A stretch of 64,000 nucleotides of DNA from positions 1,674,001-1,738,000 of the forward strand of contig NZ_CP101497.1 of NCBI RefSeq assembly GCF_024362325.1, written 5' to 3'. The position numbers and the translations under genes were made by a program. The notes beneath the pieces were generated by a model. The model made no database searches. It saw only the letters and a list, made by a program, of their open reading frames with translations, and was not told where the DNA came from. Of this stretch, positions 40,326 through 47,818 are shown one piece after another (position 1 is the stretch's first letter; every line of letters starts with the position of its first letter). This stretch comes from Microcella humidisoli. GTDB taxonomy: Bacteria > Actinomycetota > Actinomycetes > Actinomycetales > Microbacteriaceae.

Positions 40326-42020
40326 TTACCGCACGTACACCGTGCTGAACGGCCCGCGACGGCGCCGCTCGAGCTCGACCGCCGCCGCGCCCGTGAGCGT
40401 GAGCAGCAGCGCGAGGCCGATGAGGCCGGCGTTCTCGGCGGGACCGGTCATGGCGAGCGCGGGCTGCGGCCCGTCCATCGAGAGGTAGAGCAGCGTGCCG
40501 TCCGTCCCGACCGTGATGTAGGCCACTTCGGTCAGTCGTCCGGAGGGCCCCTGCCCGGTGAGCGTGATCGTGTGCGCTCCCGGCGTGATGTTCTGCGGCA
40601 GCGGAACAACCTGCACGAACCGACCGTCCAGGTCGGTCACGCCCTCGGTCACCGTCACGGGCGTCGAGCGCAGCACGAGGTCGTAGGCGGACTCGGGCTC
40701 GAGACCGCCACCCGAGACCTGCACATCGCTGCCCGGAAGGTAGTCGCCCACGCCCGCGGCGAGGGAGAGGTCGATGCCGGGGCTCGAGAAGACGGGCGCC
40801 TGCACGATGTTGTCGATGTACATGTAGGCACCCGCGGCGCCGCCCCAGCTCTTGTCGTAGCTGCCGGAGACGAAGACGAAGCGGTAGGTGCCGGCGGACG
40901 GGATGGCGACCGAGGTCGTCGTCCAGTCCTGCACCTCGCCGGTCGCGTCGATGACCTCGGTCTGCGCGCACGTGCTCGTGTTGAGCAGGTAGCCGAACAC
41001 GTGGAAGTCGTCGCTGTCGTCGACCGCCTTCCAGTCGAGGCTGATCTGCCGACCGGCCGCCACGGTGAACGGTGCGCTGACGATCGCCGGCCCGTGGATG
41101 ACGTAGCCGTCGTAGTCGCCCCCGAGATCGCTGTACAGCTCGAGGACCTTGCCCGCGCGACCCACGTCGGCGCCGTCGACGATCGAGATCTCGTACGACT
41201 CCTCGTCGAGACCCGCGTAGGCGGGCGTGTCACCGCGCAGGGTCGGGTCGGGGATGGCGCTCTCCGCTACGTCGAAGGCGTTCGACTGGTCGCTGCTCCA
41301 ATCCCACTCCGCGAGGTAGCTGTAGAGGGCCTCGACCGGGCTGACCGGCGCAGGCTCGTTCTCGGGAGCCGGGTCGCTCGGCGCGGGCTCGCCGGGCGCG
41401 GGCTCGGAAGGAGCGGGGTCAGCCGGGGTCGGCTCGCTGGGCGTCGGATCGCTGGGCGTCGGCTCAGACGGCTCCGGGTCGACCGGCGTCGTCTCCTCCG
41501 GCTGCGGTGCCGGTTCGGTCTCGGGGGCCGGCTCGGTCTCCGGGCCGGGTTCGCCCTCGCCGGGGTCGGGCACGCTCGAGAACGAGAAGTCGGGCTCGCC
41601 GACGGGCGCCATCGCCACCTCGAGCAGGTAGTAGCCGTCCCAGTCGTTCCAGACGAGGCGGTCGCCGAGGATCGTGATCGGGTCGCCGGTGAAGGCGTCG
41701 TGCACGTAGTAGTGGTCCGAGTCGAGATCGGGCACGTTCGCGTAGGTGCGATCCCACACGGCCTCGGCCTCGTCGGCGTATTCGCGCAGGTTGGTGTAGT
41801 CGGAGGTGTCGACGGTCGTGCAGCCACCGAGCGACGTCACGCCGAGGTCGATGGCCTGGTTGACCGTCGTCCATCCCGTGATGCTCGTGGAGCCGATCGC
41901 GTCGGCCTCGAACCCTCCGTTGGTGATGGTCGAACTCGCTGCGTTCGCGGTGAAAGCGGGGCCGACCGCGAGGGCGGTGCCGATGGTGAGCGCGATCGCC
42001 GCGCGGGATCTCTTGTTCAT
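40326..42020 (-). CDS. Secreted surface protein with LAMTG sortase-E-type anchor
   Basis: 564 aa. Signal peptide: MNKRSRAAIALTIGTALAV then an AxA-type end (TANA). An NGGFE-type beta domain starts at about residue 31 (ITNGGFEADAIG) and is interrupted by an acidic Pro/Thr/Ser linker of about 75 residues (PEP/SDP/TPS repeats). A jelly-roll-like part follows (GYVIHGPAIVSAPFTVAAG, TYRFVFVSGSYDKSWGGAAG), then an Ig-like segment with LPQNITPGAHTITLTGQG. The C-terminus has LAMTG at 522-526, a hydrophobic helix and ELERRRR: a class E (LAXTG) sorting signal. Probably covalently attached to peptidoglycan. Role unknown; carbohydrate binding is possible. Confidence 0.78.
   Translation of the reverse strand: MNKRSRAAIALTIGTALAVGPAFTANAASSTITNGGFEADAIGSTSITGWTTVNQAIDLGVTSLGGCTTVDTSDYTNLREYADEAEAVWDRTYANVPDLDSDHYYVHDAFTGDPITILGDRLVWNDWDGYYLLEVAMAPVGEPDFSFSSVPDPGEGEPGPETEPAPETEPAPQPEETTPVDPEPSEPTPSDPTPSEPTPADPAPSEPAPGEPAPSDPAPENEPAPVSPVEALYSYLAEWDWSSDQSNAFDVAESAIPDPTLRGDTPAYAGLDEESYEISIVDGADVGRAGKVLELYSDLGGDYDGYVIHGPAIVSAPFTVAAGRQISLDWKAVDDSDDFHVFGYLLNTSTCAQTEVIDATGEVQDWTTTSVAIPSAGTYRFVFVSGSYDKSWGGAAGAYMYIDNIVQAPVFSSPGIDLSLAAGVGDYLPGSDVQVSGGGLEPESAYDLVLRSTPVTVTEGVTDLDGRFVQVVPLPQNITPGAHTITLTGQGPSGRLTEVAYITVGTDGTLLYLSMDGPQPALAMTGPAENAGLIGLALLLTLTGAAAVELERRRRGPFSTVYVR
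41340..41570 (-). repeat. Degenerate repeat encoding a Pro/Glu/Ser/Asp linker
   Basis: Short imperfect repeats of about 12-18 bp encode alternating PEP, SEPTPSDPTP and PAPETEP units within the LAMTG surface protein. Typical wall-spanning spacer; length is likely to vary between strains. Confidence 0.8.
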
Positions 42021-42514: not shown

Positions 42515-43072
42515 ATGTCCCTCCATGACCAGCTTCGCGCTGTCGCGCTCGCCGAGTTCGCGGCCGCCGGATACGCGGCGACCTCGCTGCAGCGCATCGC
42601 CGATCTCGCGGGGACCTCGAAAGCGAGCGTGCTCTACCACTTCGCCTCGAAGGAGCAGCTGCTCGCCGAGATCGTGAGCCCCGCGCTCGACGACCTCGAG
42701 CAGCTCATCACGCCCCTCGACGACCACGGTGGACTGCGGCGCGCCGACTTCGTCGAGCGCTTCGTCGACCTGCTGCTACTGCATCGCCAGGTCGTGCCCC
42801 TCGTCATCAATCAGGGGGCGACGCTCGACGACGTGCCCGTCATGCACCGGGCGACCGAACTCATGCGCCGCGTGGCCGAGCTGTTCCGGCTCGCGAGCGG
42901 CTCCACGATCGAGAAGCTGCGCTTCGGCGTGGCGTTCGGCGGTGTCGCCTACACGCTGGCGGCCGCCGAACGACTGGGACTCAACGGCGAGATCCCGATC
43001 GACGAGGTGCGCTCTGCACTGCTCGAGATCCTGCACGACCTGCTCGTGCCCGCCGACTCCCGAACCCCCTAA
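42515..43072 (+). CDS. TetR-family repressor
   Basis: 185 aa. The N-terminal HTH reads FAAAGYAATSLQRIADLAGTSKASVLYHFASKEQLL (residues 12-48), the classic TetR pattern; the C-terminal helices form the ligand-binding and dimer domain. It is 10 nt upstream of the MMPL transporter gene and preceded by two operator-like repeats. It likely represses itself, the MMPL transporter and the YhgE/Pip gene until an envelope-active compound or exported substrate is bound. Ligand unknown. Confidence 0.9.
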   Translation: MSLHDQLRAVALAEFAAAGYAATSLQRIADLAGTSKASVLYHFASKEQLLAEIVSPALDDLEQLITPLDDHGGLRRADFVERFVDLLLLHRQVVPLVINQGATLDDVPVMHRATELMRRVAELFRLASGSTIEKLRFGVAFGGVAYTLAAAERLGLNGEIPIDEVRSALLEILHDLLVPADSRTP

Positions 43073-43082
43073 GGACGCCCCG

Positions 43083-45944
43083 ATGGCCACGCTCCTCTAC
43101 CGGCTCGGCCGGTTCTCCTACCGCCGCGCCCGCCTCGTCATCGTCGCCTGGCTCGTGGTGTTCGCCGCGACGATCGGCGGCGGCCTCGCGCTCGGCGGGC
43201 AGACCGACGAGACCTTCAGCATCCCCGGCACCGAGTCGCAGGTCGCGCTCGACCAGCTCAACGCGCTCTTCCCGGCCGTCTCGGGGGCGAGCGCGCAAGC
43301 CGTGGTCGTCGCGCCCGAGGGTGCAGCGGTGACGGATGCCGGCATTCGCGACCAGATCGACACCCTCGAGCGCGCCCTCATCGGCGTCGACGGCGTCGAC
43401 TCGGTGCTCGGTCCGTTCGACGAGTTCGCCGACGGCCAGGTGAGCGACGACGAGGCCGTGGCGATCGTGCGCGTGCAGCTCGACGGCGCGTCGTCCGACA
43501 TCTCGGAGGAGACGATCGCGGCGCTCGTCGCGACGGCCGAGACGGTCGACGTGCGCGTCGAATTCGCCGGGCAGGTGTTCCAAGACACGACGGTCGGCCT
43601 CACGGTCAGTGAGGTGCTCGGCGTGCTGTTCGCCGGCGCCGTGCTCATCATCACCTTCGGCTCGCTGCGCGCGGCGTGGATGCCCCTCGCGACCGCGCTC
43701 ATCGGCGTCGGCATCGTCGTCGGCGCCATCCTCGGGCTCGCGGCGTTCCTGCCGGTCTCGAGTTCGGCGCCCCTGCTCGCCGTCATGATCGGCCTCGCCG
43801 TTGGTATCGACTACGCGCTCTTCATCCTGTCGCGGCATCGCGGTCAGCTCGCCCGGGGAATGGACCCGGCCGAGTCGGCGGCCGTCGCGGTCGGCACGGC
43901 GGGCAGCGCTGTCGTATTCGCGGGAGCGACCGTCATCATCGCGCTGCTCGGTCTGCTCGTGGTCGGCGTGCCGTTCCTCTCGGTCATGGGCGTCGGCGCG
44001 GCCTTCGCGGTGCTCATCGCCATCGCCGCCGCGGTCACCCTGCTGCCCGCCCTGCTCGGCGTCGCCGGCGCGAAGCTCGTGCCGCGCGAGGGCTCGCGAG
44101 CCTGGAAGCGCGCCCACCCCGACGCCACGACGGCGCCGACCATGGGCCGGAGGTGGGTGCGCGGCGTCATGAAGCGCCCCGTGCTCACGAGCATCTCGGT
44201 CGTGGCCGTGCTCGGCGTGCTCTCGATCCCGGCCTTCTCGCTCGATCTCAACCTGCCCGACGGCGGCAGCGAGCCCGCCGGCTCGACGCAGCGCGAGGCC
44301 TACGACATCATCGCCGACGCCTTCGGGCCCGGCACGGCTGGCCCTCTGCTCGTGACGCTCGACATCACGCAGACGACCGACATCCTCGACGACCTCGCGG
44401 CGATCCGGGGCGAGCTCGAGCAGGTCGACGGGGTCGCGAGCGTGAGCCCCGGCATCCCGTCGCCGGGCCTCGAGACCGCGATCTTCCAGGTGGCGCCCGA
44501 GACGGCGCCCGACGACCCGGCGACCAAGCTCGTCGTCGCCGACCTGCGCGCGGCCGGCGACGCCATCGAGGAGGAGTTCGGCACGCCGCTCGCCGTGACG
44601 GGCGTCACCGCGGTCGGCATCGACATCTCGACGCGGCTGACCAACGCGCTCGTCCCCTTCGGCCTCGTCGTCGTGGGACTGTCGGTCGTGCTGCTCATGG
44701 CGGTGTTCCGCTCGGTGCTCGTGCCCGTCAAGGCGGCACTGGGCTTCCTGCTCTCGGTCGGCAGCGCGATGGGCGTCACCGTCGCGGTCTTCCAGTGGGG
44801 ATGGGGCGCCGAGCTGCTGCACGCCGAGCCCGGCCCCATCCTCAGCTTCATGCCCATCATCCTCATGGCCGTGCTGTTCGGGCTCGCCATGGACTACGAG
44901 GTCTTCCTCGTCTCGGGCATGCGCGAGGAGTTCGTGCGCACGGGCGAGCCGCGCCGCTCGATCGAAGACGGCTTCGCGAACGGCGCGCGCGTCGTCACGG
45001 CCGCGGCGCTCATCATGTTCTTCGTCTTCGCGGCCTTCGTGCCGGAGGGATCGGGCCTCATCAAGCCCATCGCCCTGAGCCTCGCGGTCGGCATCGCGAT
45101 CGACGCCTTCGTCGTGCGCATGACGCTCGGCCCCGCGCTCATGGCGCTCTTCGGGCGCGCGGCCTGGTGGTTCCCGCGCGCGCTCGACCGCACCCTGCCC
45201 GACCTCGACGTCGAAGGCGAGAAGCTGCGCCATCACCGCGACCACCGCGCGTGGGCGGCCGAGCAGGGCGACGCCGTCATCGTGGCCGATCGCCTCGGTT
45301 TCGAGGGCACGGATGCGCAGCTCACGCTCGTCGCCGGCCCCGGCACGCGCGTGGACCTGGTCGGCGAGGGCGCGACCCGCCGGCTCGCGGGTGCGACGCT
45401 CGCCGGCTACCTGCCGCCGCGCTCGGGCCGCGCGGTCGTCGCCGATGCCGTGCTCCCCTCCGAAGCCGGACGCGCCTCGCGCCGCGTGACGCTCGTCGAC
45501 GTGAGCGGCGACCGGCTCGCGCCGACCGTGACGATCGCCGCGCTCGTGAGCGAGCGCATCGCGCTCGCGGCCGGCTACCCGCGCGGCCTGCGCCGAACCC
45601 GGCGCTGGATCGCCCGCCTCACGACCGCGCTCGCCTCCCTCGGCGTCGAGCCGCTCGGTGTCGCCGACCCCGAGACGGCCGTCGCGGCGCTCGACCCCCG
45701 CCGTCGCGCGCTCGTGCTCGCCGCGGTCGCCACGCTCGACGCGACCCCCGTGATCGTGCTCGACCATCGCGATGACGCCTTGACCGGCGACGACATCGCC
45801 CTGCTCGACGCGCTCGTGCAGCGCCTCGCCCCCGCTCCCGTCGTGCGGGTGTGGGGCCGCGAGCCCGGCAGCCCGGCCGCGGACGGCGCGCTGACCGTCG
45901 ACCTCGACTCCGCATCCACCCTCATCGAAAGGAGCGGCGCATGA
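43083..45944 (+). CDS. MMPL/RND transporter fused to an apparently inactive ABC ATPase-like domain
   Basis: 953 aa. Residues 1-700 form an MMPL transporter: helix 1 at 19-40, an extracellular domain at about 45-165, helices 2-6 at about 175-345, a second extracellular domain, and helices 7-12 to about 695. GLAVGIDYALFILSRHR and LFGLAMDYEVFLVSGMREE are the proton-relay Asp motifs. The C-terminal 240 residues look like an ABC nucleotide-binding domain that has lost catalysis. VDLVGEGATRR (about 757-767) sits where Walker A should be, then AGYLPPRSGRAVVAD. LDPRRRALVLAA replaces the LSGGQ helix, and PVIVLDHRDD (889-898) is Walker B with His895 for the catalytic Glu. ATGA overlap with the YhgE gene. 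The MMPL part is certain; the ABC resemblance is my inference. Confidence 0.85.
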   Translation: MATLLYRLGRFSYRRARLVIVAWLVVFAATIGGGLALGGQTDETFSIPGTESQVALDQLNALFPAVSGASAQAVVVAPEGAAVTDAGIRDQIDTLERALIGVDGVDSVLGPFDEFADGQVSDDEAVAIVRVQLDGASSDISEETIAALVATAETVDVRVEFAGQVFQDTTVGLTVSEVLGVLFAGAVLIITFGSLRAAWMPLATALIGVGIVVGAILGLAAFLPVSSSAPLLAVMIGLAVGIDYALFILSRHRGQLARGMDPAESAAVAVGTAGSAVVFAGATVIIALLGLLVVGVPFLSVMGVGAAFAVLIAIAAAVTLLPALLGVAGAKLVPREGSRAWKRAHPDATTAPTMGRRWVRGVMKRPVLTSISVVAVLGVLSIPAFSLDLNLPDGGSEPAGSTQREAYDIIADAFGPGTAGPLLVTLDITQTTDILDDLAAIRGELEQVDGVASVSPGIPSPGLETAIFQVAPETAPDDPATKLVVADLRAAGDAIEEEFGTPLAVTGVTAVGIDISTRLTNALVPFGLVVVGLSVVLLMAVFRSVLVPVKAALGFLLSVGSAMGVTVAVFQWGWGAELLHAEPGPILSFMPIILMAVLFGLAMDYEVFLVSGMREEFVRTGEPRRSIEDGFANGARVVTAAALIMFFVFAAFVPEGSGLIKPIALSLAVGIAIDAFVVRMTLGPALMALFGRAAWWFPRALDRTLPDLDVEGEKLRHHRDHRAWAAEQGDAVIVADRLGFEGTDAQLTLVAGPGTRVDLVGEGATRRLAGATLAGYLPPRSGRAVVADAVLPSEAGRASRRVTLVDVSGDRLAPTVTIAALVSERIALAAGYPRGLRRTRRWIARLTTALASLGVEPLGVADPETAVAALDPRRRALVLAAVATLDATPVIVLDHRDDALTGDDIALLDALVQRLAPAPVVRVWGREPGSPAADGALTVDLDSASTLIERSGA

Positions 45945-47818
45945 CCGCCGCCTCGCCCCTCGCCCCCGCGCCGGTTACTCCGACGCCGCTCGCCCATCGC
46001 GGGCGACTGCGCCGCTGGCTCACCATGGTCGCCGCCGTCGCCGTGCCCCTCGCCCTCGTCGGCATCGCGCTCGCCGCGGTCGGCAGCGAGTCGAGCGCGC
46101 TCGAGCGCATCCCCGCCGCCGTCGTCAACGACGACGAGCTGCTCACGACGACCACCGCCGACGGCGAGGAGCAGATCGTGTTCGCGGGCCGCCAGCTCGT
46201 GACCGAGCTCACCGGTGGCGACGGCACCGGGTTCGACTGGCGCGTGACGGGCGCCGACGAGGCCGCCGCGGCACTCGAGCGCGGCGAGGTCTACGCGGTG
46301 CTCACGATCCCCACCGACTTCTCGGCCTCCCTGCTGACGATCGGCACTCCCGACCCCGTGCAGGCGCAGCTCGAGATCGAGACCGACGACGCGCACAGCT
46401 ACCTCGCGGGCTCGGTCGTGCAGGCCGTCGGCAGCGGACTCGCCCAGCAGTTCGGCGCCGCCATCACGGCCCAGTACCTCGACGGACTGACGACGGGCCT
46501 CGGCGAGCTCGGTGCGGCCCTCGGCGAGGCCGCCGACGGCGCGACGCAGCTCGGCGACGGCGCGAGCGAGCTCAGCGCGGGTCTCGGCGAGCTGAGCGCC
46601 GGCGCGAGCGCCTCGGCGAGCGGTGCGCGCGCGCTCTCGGCAGGGGTGGGCGAGTACACGGGGGGCGTCAGCAGCCTCTCGAGCGGTCTCGGCGAGCTGC
46701 GGGCCGGAGCCCGCCAGCTCGATCCCCTGCAGCAGGCCGCGGCGAGCATCCCGTCGAGCGCGGGCGCCCTCGCGGGCGACCTCGCCGCGCTCGCCCCCGC
46801 GATCGCGGCCTCGAACCTCAGCCCGGCTGACCAGCAGGCGCTCCTCGACGCCATCACCGACGCGCAAGTGCTTGCGGGAACAGCCTCCGCCGTGATTCCG
46901 CCGCTCAATGGCGGACTCGACGGCATCCAGTCGGGCATCGCGCAGAGCGCGAGCGGAGCGGCGGCCCTCGCCGCCGGCGGGCCCGCGCTGCGCTCGGGCG
47001 CGGCCGACCTCGCCGGGGGGCTCGGCGCGCTCGCGGGCGGCACCTCGGAGATCACCTCGGGCGCCGAGTCGCTCGCCTCGGGCGTCGACGAGCTCGCCTC
47101 GGGGCTCTCCTCCGGTGCGGGACAGGTGCCCGAGGCGGGCGACAGCAGCGTGGCGAGCGAGCCTGTCGTCGTCGAGTCGACGCGCGTCAACGCCGTCGAC
47201 GGCGTCGGATCGGTCATCGCCGAGACGCTCGTGCCCATCGGGCTCTGGATCGGCGCGCTCGCGACCTTCCTCGCGCTGCGGCCGGCGGCGCGCGGCGTCA
47301 TCGGCACCTCGGCGGCGGGCGGCATCATCGTGCGTCGGGCCGTCGGCCGGGCATCCCTCATCGCGCTGGCCCAGGCCGCCCTCGTGACCGTGCTCGTGCA
47401 TGCCGTGAGCGGCATCGACCTCGCGCTGCTGCCCGCGACGCTCGCGCTCACGAGCATCATCGCGCTCGCGTTCACGGCGCTGCACGCGGCGCTCACGCTC
47501 ACGCTCGGGCGGGCCGGGCTTGTCGTCTCGCTGCTGCTGCTCGCCGTGCAGATCGTCGCGACGGGTGGCCTCATCCCGATCGCGGCGCTCGCCGACCCGT
47601 TCCCCGCGCTGAGCGCGGTGCTGCCGCTCACCTACGCCGTCGACGGCATGCAGGCGCTCTTCGCCGGGGGAGACCCCGCGCGCATCGTCGCGGCCGTCGC
47701 CGCCATGGCCCTGCTCGGCGGGGTGTCGCTGCTCGTCGCGCGCCTCGCGGCGGGGCGCGCCCGCCGACGGGATGCCCTCGCCGCGTTCGCCCCGACCCTC
47801 GCGACCGCCGCGGTGTGA
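45941..47818 (+). CDS. YhgE/Pip-family membrane protein
   Basis: 625 aa. An N-terminal helix (about residues 25-46) is followed by an extracellular domain (SALERIPAAVVNDDELLTTT), then a long stretch of LGELxxGAxxL-type repeats (about 185-420) with heptad-like spacing. The end has about six membrane helices of the ABC-2 fold (LVPIGLWIGALATFLALRPA to the last helix near 600). The family includes phage infection protein Pip and YhgE/EsaA-like exporters. It begins at an ATGA overlap with AAGGAG upstream, so it is coupled to the MMPL-ABC-like fusion. An ABC-2 type membrane protein with no separate ATPase gene nearby is notable. Confidence 0.87.
   Translation: MTAASPLAPAPVTPTPLAHRGRLRRWLTMVAAVAVPLALVGIALAAVGSESSALERIPAAVVNDDELLTTTTADGEEQIVFAGRQLVTELTGGDGTGFDWRVTGADEAAAALERGEVYAVLTIPTDFSASLLTIGTPDPVQAQLEIETDDAHSYLAGSVVQAVGSGLAQQFGAAITAQYLDGLTTGLGELGAALGEAADGATQLGDGASELSAGLGELSAGASASASGARALSAGVGEYTGGVSSLSSGLGELRAGARQLDPLQQAAASIPSSAGALAGDLAALAPAIAASNLSPADQQALLDAITDAQVLAGTASAVIPPLNGGLDGIQSGIAQSASGAAALAAGGPALRSGAADLAGGLGALAGGTSEITSGAESLASGVDELASGLSSGAGQVPEAGDSSVASEPVVVESTRVNAVDGVGSVIAETLVPIGLWIGALATFLALRPAARGVIGTSAAGGIIVRRAVGRASLIALAQAALVTVLVHAVSGIDLALLPATLALTSIIALAFTALHAALTLTLGRAGLVVSLLLLAVQIVATGGLIPIAALADPFPALSAVLPLTYAVDGMQALFAGGDPARIVAAVAAMALLGGVSLLVARLAAGRARRRDALAAFAPTLATAAV

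Follow-up and report, generated by a model that had tools for sequence, protein, structure and literature searches.

An MMPL transporter with a C-terminal degenerate ABC nucleotide-binding domain, encoded directly before a YhgE/Pip gene in Microcella humidisoli, as part of a possible hybrid exporter

The window, a stretch of 64,000 nucleotides from the genome of Microcella humidisoli, contains three consecutive genes on the forward strand that encode a TetR-family regulator, an MMPL transporter extended by a C-terminal domain, and a YhgE/Pip protein. The open reading frames (ORFs) bear out this gene set, which a preliminary description of the DNA had listed.

42515..43072, + strand: TetR-family regulator (185 aa; PF00440, E=7.7e-14)
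43083..45944, + strand: MMPL transporter with C-terminal ABC-NBD-like domain (953 aa; PF03176, E=7.1e-83)
45941..45944, + strand: ATGA in which the yhgE start overlaps the stop of the MMPL fusion by 4 nt (ORF calls)
45941..47818, + strand: YhgE/Pip protein (625 aa; putative ABC-2-type membrane ends, heptad-repeat middle)

On the minus strand at 40326-42020 of the window lies a gene whose 564-aa product has a signal-like N-terminus, a repeat stretch rich in Pro and Glu and, near the C-terminus, a hydrophobic stretch followed by an Arg tail; the protein has no Pfam match at E≤0.001 and by eye resembles a wall-anchored surface protein. Between 47944 and 51028, an amino-acid permease gene (minus strand, PF00324/PF13520) diverges from a glutamine-synthetase-like gene (PF00120), and this pair probably serves ordinary amine or amino-acid use.

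MMPL is the sole Pfam family found in the 953-aa fusion gene, with PF03176 matching above its cut-off in two stretches (278.7 bits). MMPL proteins are proton-driven via Asp-Tyr pairs, and their C termini are cytoplasmic. Two such pairs are kept in the window protein, and we take them to be the MMPL proton relay, a role described in work on MmpL3. In PF03176 and both pairs the protein is like MmpL3 and other MMPL (RND) transporters, but it differs from them in its added ABC-NBD-like tail, which follows the MMPL core after a linker helix.

43809..43814, + strand: first Asp-Tyr pair, D243-Y244 (D and Y in 49/49 aligned fusions)
44892..44897, + strand: second Asp-Tyr pair, D604-Y605 (D and Y in 49/49 aligned fusions)
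45225..45260, + strand: linker helix, residues 715-726, from MMPL core to NBD-like domain (helix in the model; L1, H4, W10 and A11 invariant in alignment A3)
45267..45926, + strand: degenerate ABC nucleotide-binding domain, about residues 729-948 (profile matches and predicted structure)

Searched alone as a single sequence, residues 715-953 gave no Pfam match at E≤10, no NCBIfam match at E≤1 and no PDB match, and the NBD call made by eye in the preliminary description was therefore not trivial. This null result does not equal absence of homology, because a family profile detects it. Built from 34 fusion tails, the profile matched ABC ATPases in the PDB (best EcfA1, E=1.4e-9), with 98 sequences reaching E≤0.01, of which those listed (60) are all ABC proteins. 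Profile-profile comparison of the tails with 22 canonical NBDs returned a probability of 97.9% (E=4.2e-13), against 0.6% for TetR and 0.3% for the MMPL core as controls. A canonical-ABC HMM gave at least 10 bits to 13 of the 34 tails (window tail, 12.4), a level reached by 0/1020 shuffles and 0/37 MMPL cores; these shuffles and controls reject chance or artefact as the source of the match. Structure prediction returned a confident ABC NBD fold. The tail is thus, by prediction, an ABC NBD fold, and the earlier reading of residues 715-953 has survived both results that could have overturned it, a different fold or the lack of a profile match to ABC ATPases. A search with the tail alignment alone found MMPL fragments and ABC proteins, 8 in all, which is not enough to build a tree.

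Catalytic positions were compared in a joint alignment of 110 sequences that includes the 22 canonical NBD controls; the motif groups exclude L105 and L113, canonical ABC proteins that were used as controls, and alignment A2 omits the near-copies L002 and L004, the partial L005 and the short L065. The Walker A, signature and Walker B positions that had been proposed from the window alone coincide with those motifs in the joint alignment.

45363..45386, + strand: Walker A position, GEGATRRL in place of GxxGxGKS/T (joint alignment)
45690..45713, + strand: signature position, LDPRRRAL in place of an LSGGQ-type motif (joint alignment)
45747..45776, + strand: Walker B position, PVIVLDHRDD, with D894 kept and His replacing the catalytic Glu (joint alignment)
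45849..45869, + strand: H-loop position, VWGREPG, without His (joint alignment)

Among full-length Microbacteriaceae tails, the Walker A Lys and the Walker B catalytic Glu are each found in 0/35 (22/22 in canonical controls) and the H-loop His in 0/35 (21/22 in controls), while Ser/Thr follows the Walker A Lys column in a single tail (1/35). No Ser-Gly-Gly signature occurs among the sequences listed from the joint alignment. The alignment thus supports a tail that has lost its catalytic motifs and an NBD that is putatively dead, as the preliminary description's “dead-looking” had it. An active ATPase with unusual chemistry would agree with the fold and with nothing more; with Lys, Glu and His all absent in 35/35 full-length tails of the subfamily, and the signature missing from the listed sequences, we find this scarcely credible. 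The old P-loop has become conserved anew in Microbacteriaceae fusions, with R766 in 35/36, R767 in 31/36 and T772 in 33/36.

The tail profile matched at E≤1e-20 in 124/299 Microbacteriaceae genomes, representing 41/85 genera (stand-alone matches included), with genomes scored on their best candidates (up to 9 in this family scan, up to 6 in the class-wide tail scan and up to 7 in the YhgE scan described below). With open-frame length as a proxy for fusion, most of the 134 listed family matches (112) sit in frames of at least 900 aa, one of which contains a read-through stop; a further 6 sit in frames of 542-713 aa, and the other 16 in frames shorter than 400 aa. In a sample of the phylum, 15/246 genomes match at E≤1e-12; four of these 15 are outside the class, with scores of 49-53 bits, and may hold ordinary ABC proteins.

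Fusion loci were examined with their flanks in 48 cases (L001-L004, L036-L067, L076-L081 and L107-L112). The preliminary description had raised the question of whether the fusion occurs with or without a YhgE neighbor; yhgE directly follows the fusion at all 48. The fusion stop codon lies inside an NTGA, a potential overlapping start, at 40/48, and a TetR-like ORF (>15 bits) is present on the same strand at 36/48, on the opposite strand at 8, with none found at 4. At another locus, L073, no ORF matched. Tails are reduced to about 130-150 aa in the YhgE-adjoining MMPL fusions L107-L111, three of them in Microbacteriaceae (domain extents for short tails drop matches below 40 bits), and the tail of L065 is also shortened.

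Comparisons of the window gene with its five closest relatives (L005, L001-L004) gave dN/dS values of 0.15-0.33 for the domain, and those with L001-L004 gave 0.08-0.19 for the MMPL core; in close pairs the tail is constrained, though less than the pump. Because of these low values, together with the Arg-Arg motif newly conserved at the former P-loop, we consider tail function to be retained. Against the more distant L036 and L037, the domain values rise to 0.71 and 0.77 (MMPL core, 0.30 and 0.33); the domain evolves fast, and we do not accept these two pairs as proof of constraint. They would suit a tail that no longer has a function, is left over from an ancestral MMPL-ABC fusion and is being lost, as would the lost catalytic motifs and the shortened tails of L107-L111 and L065. 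Such a vestige is nevertheless very unlikely in view of the strong profile match across 124/299 genomes and 41/85 genera (stand-alone included), the purifying selection in the five close pairs, the confidently predicted fold and the newly conserved motif.

The tail also has stand-alone relatives. We ran the tail profile over 394 genomes of the class, searched for the YhgE C-terminal domain as well, and combined the two scans. The combination draws on the 150 matches listed for the tail and the 150 listed for YhgE, and all counts from it are lower bounds. Among listed tail matches of at least 55 bits, 84/88 have a same-strand yhgE no more than 3 kb downstream, compared with 4/62 among those of 41-55 bits, the 55-bit line having been chosen after the loci were inspected. 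As to the four exceptions, G258 does have a YhgE gene (L109, identified by hand), the G606 match (L105) proves to be a canonical ABC ATPase whose motifs are intact, and the remaining two are one match each in G670 and G465. The difference in adjacency (84/88 vs. 4/62) indicates that the tail belongs to an NBD-like partner family of actinobacterial YhgE/Pip proteins. Viewed from the YhgE side, 88/150 listed matches have a listed tail match upstream. Among 20 loci fetched from the other 62, the tail profile finds an NBD-like ORF beside yhgE in 14 (16.8-67 bits) and none in 6; YhgE can thus dispense with such a partner. Two loci (L131:2246-7005 and L132:3021-8461) carry two tandem YhgE-like genes, with an NBD-like ORF not found, and perhaps encode a heterodimeric YhgE pair.

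Most of the strong class-wide tail matches are in frames of about 230-500 aa, and the fetched stretches of about 9-16 kb around stand-alone relatives (L082-L104, L106) hold no MMPL match. This bears on whether the tail might serve MMPL alone, in folding, oligomerization or regulation, with YhgE merely co-transcribed. The tail is indeed fused to MMPL and not to YhgE, but its relatives stand beside yhgE where MMPL is missing from the fetched stretches, so the shared partner is YhgE, and a role confined to the pump appears rather improbable.

A quick tree of 105 sequences joined the 41 full-length fused domains to the 42 stand-alone ones and separated both from the 22 canonical NBDs (SH-aLRT 100; no bootstrap; the five short tails L107-L111 excluded). 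Because 20 of the 22 controls are from the same genome as the window, and degenerate sequences may be drawn to one another, we claim no deeper placement. The fusions form two separate groups in the tree, yet a single clade of full-length fusions is not rejected (p-AU 0.183). The best NCBIfam model is NodI for one stand-alone relative (L072), DrrA for a second (L085) and, weakly, another ABC model for a third (L090); all five that were scanned (L072, L085, L089, L090, L102) exceed the Pfam ABC_tran cut-off. Judged by its profile kinship above the generic ABC level and by its gene lying directly before yhgE, the window tail falls, at the level of sequence, within what we define here as the YhgE-partner NBD-like family. 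We read the tail as a transplanted, putatively dead YhgE-partner NBD, and this origin is a new point.

Motif loss in the wider family is graded. Six full-length fusions from two other families (L076-L081) retain a GxxGxGKT P-loop while carrying Asp at the Walker B Glu position (6/6) and Gln at the H-loop His position (6/6); in L078 and L080, the two that were scanned, one ORF passes both the MMPL and the ABC_tran Pfam cut-offs. In the sampled stand-alone YhgE partners, the Walker A column holds Lys in 4/42 and Arg in 29/42, and the catalytic Glu is present in 0/42. Given that stand-alone partners and P-loop fusions alike are without the Glu, catalysis seems to have been lost before, or independently of, fusion to MMPL. 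The YhgE-adjacent stand-alone proteins probably do not hydrolyze ATP despite their ABC_tran matches. The domain might instead bind a nucleotide or another phosphate-bearing ligand without hydrolysis and so gate the pump and YhgE. Consistent with such gating are the intact P-loops of the six fusions, with Asp for Glu and Gln at the H-loop throughout, the Arg or Lys at the Walker A Lys position of stand-alone partners, and the conserved Arg pair in the window's subfamily. Full-length Microbacteriaceae tails, with Lys in 0/35 and Ser/Thr at the next position in 1/35, argue against it, and we hold it unlikely while giving it some weight.

The protein encoded downstream is a member of YhgE/Pip by curated NCBIfam cut-offs (TIGR03061, 112.3 bits, cut-off 96.15; TIGR03062, 127.5 bits, cut-off 102.2); it contains TIGR03057 repeats and also exceeds the Pfam cut-offs of PF12698 (E=5.6e-16) and PF01061. 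Its structure model, made from 6 sequences only, is poor (pLDDT 49.4). One report describes the YhgE/PIP domain as being without a known function (PMC4999554), and YhgE/Pip, MmpL4 and ABC genes are given as separate recombination hotspots in another (PMC12584985). In the open-licence PubMed Central papers searched, we found no description of YhgE/Pip with an NBD-like partner or of an NBD-bearing MMPL, which is weak evidence of absence.

Taking these observations together, we favor, with some reserve, a hybrid exporter encoded by the operon, in which a proton-driven MMPL pump would be docked to YhgE via the dead NBD. Since stand-alone relatives are encoded beside YhgE/Pip in other actinobacteria, the tail probably joins pump and YhgE. 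NBDs hold ABC permeases from the cytoplasmic side. The dead NBD, presumably itself cytoplasmic, could hold YhgE in the same way without hydrolyzing ATP, and the energy would come from the MMPL part, whose proton relay is intact. YhgE, which has a long repeat region, might then pass a hydrophobic substrate (a lipid, a sterol-like compound or a drug) outward, the TetR protein would sense that substrate, and the fusion would bind the pump to what was once a separate partner of YhgE, at 1:1. Speaking against this reading are the YhgE loci without an NBD-like ORF, the fast evolution of the domain in the two more distant pairs, and a strong tail match in no more than 124/299 family genomes. The tie between the pump and an ABC-2-like partner had been put forward in the preliminary description; it gains from the stand-alone relatives that adjoin yhgE, while physical docking is still something that we infer.

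ATPases of the DrrA/NodI kind serve ABC-2-type membrane proteins. They share the fold of the tail and differ from it in that the window tail is without catalytic motifs, is fused to MMPL and has YhgE/Pip as the partner gene. A closer parallel comes from mycobacteria, where, according to PMC11539658, PDIM export depends on both MmpL7 and DrrABC. In that account DrrABC is a true ABC exporter; MmpL7 has no proton relay and is proposed, without direct evidence, to act as a scaffold for DrrABC. As presented there (PMC11539658), an RND/MMPL protein and an ABC exporter work on one lipid, which is the likeness to our locus. In the mycobacterial system, however, the ABC side is live and MmpL7 has lost its relay, whereas our locus combines a dead, fused NBD with an MMPL protein that keeps the relay, and has YhgE where the permease would be. 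The operon may therefore represent an exporter class that is a mirror image of MmpL7-DrrABC: a proton-driven RND/MMPL pump would power or gate an ABC-2-fold YhgE/Pip protein through a dead NBD whose origin is a broader family of pseudo-ATPases partnering YhgE in actinobacteria, with graded P-loop loss in living fusions. This we advance tentatively, as slightly short of an even prospect.

By convention, RND/MMPL pumps and ABC transporters belong to two classes, each with an energy source of its own. In the conserved fusion described here, an MMPL pump carries a now dead ABC-type NBD whose partner, to judge by genome context, is YhgE/Pip. For YhgE/Pip, a domain without known function according to PMC4999554, this names a specific partner and offers a way to test how it is energized. 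The NBD-like family is also flagged as one in which several members exceed the ABC_tran cut-off and yet are probably non-hydrolyzing.

A lead on a hydrophobic substrate may come from Saccharopolyspora hirsuta, in which cholesterol induces 28 genes; in Table 2 of PMC9782250, these include a YhgE/Pip gene (F1721_04135, 3.82-fold) and an MMPL gene (F1721_04140, 3.33-fold), and the two have successive locus tags.
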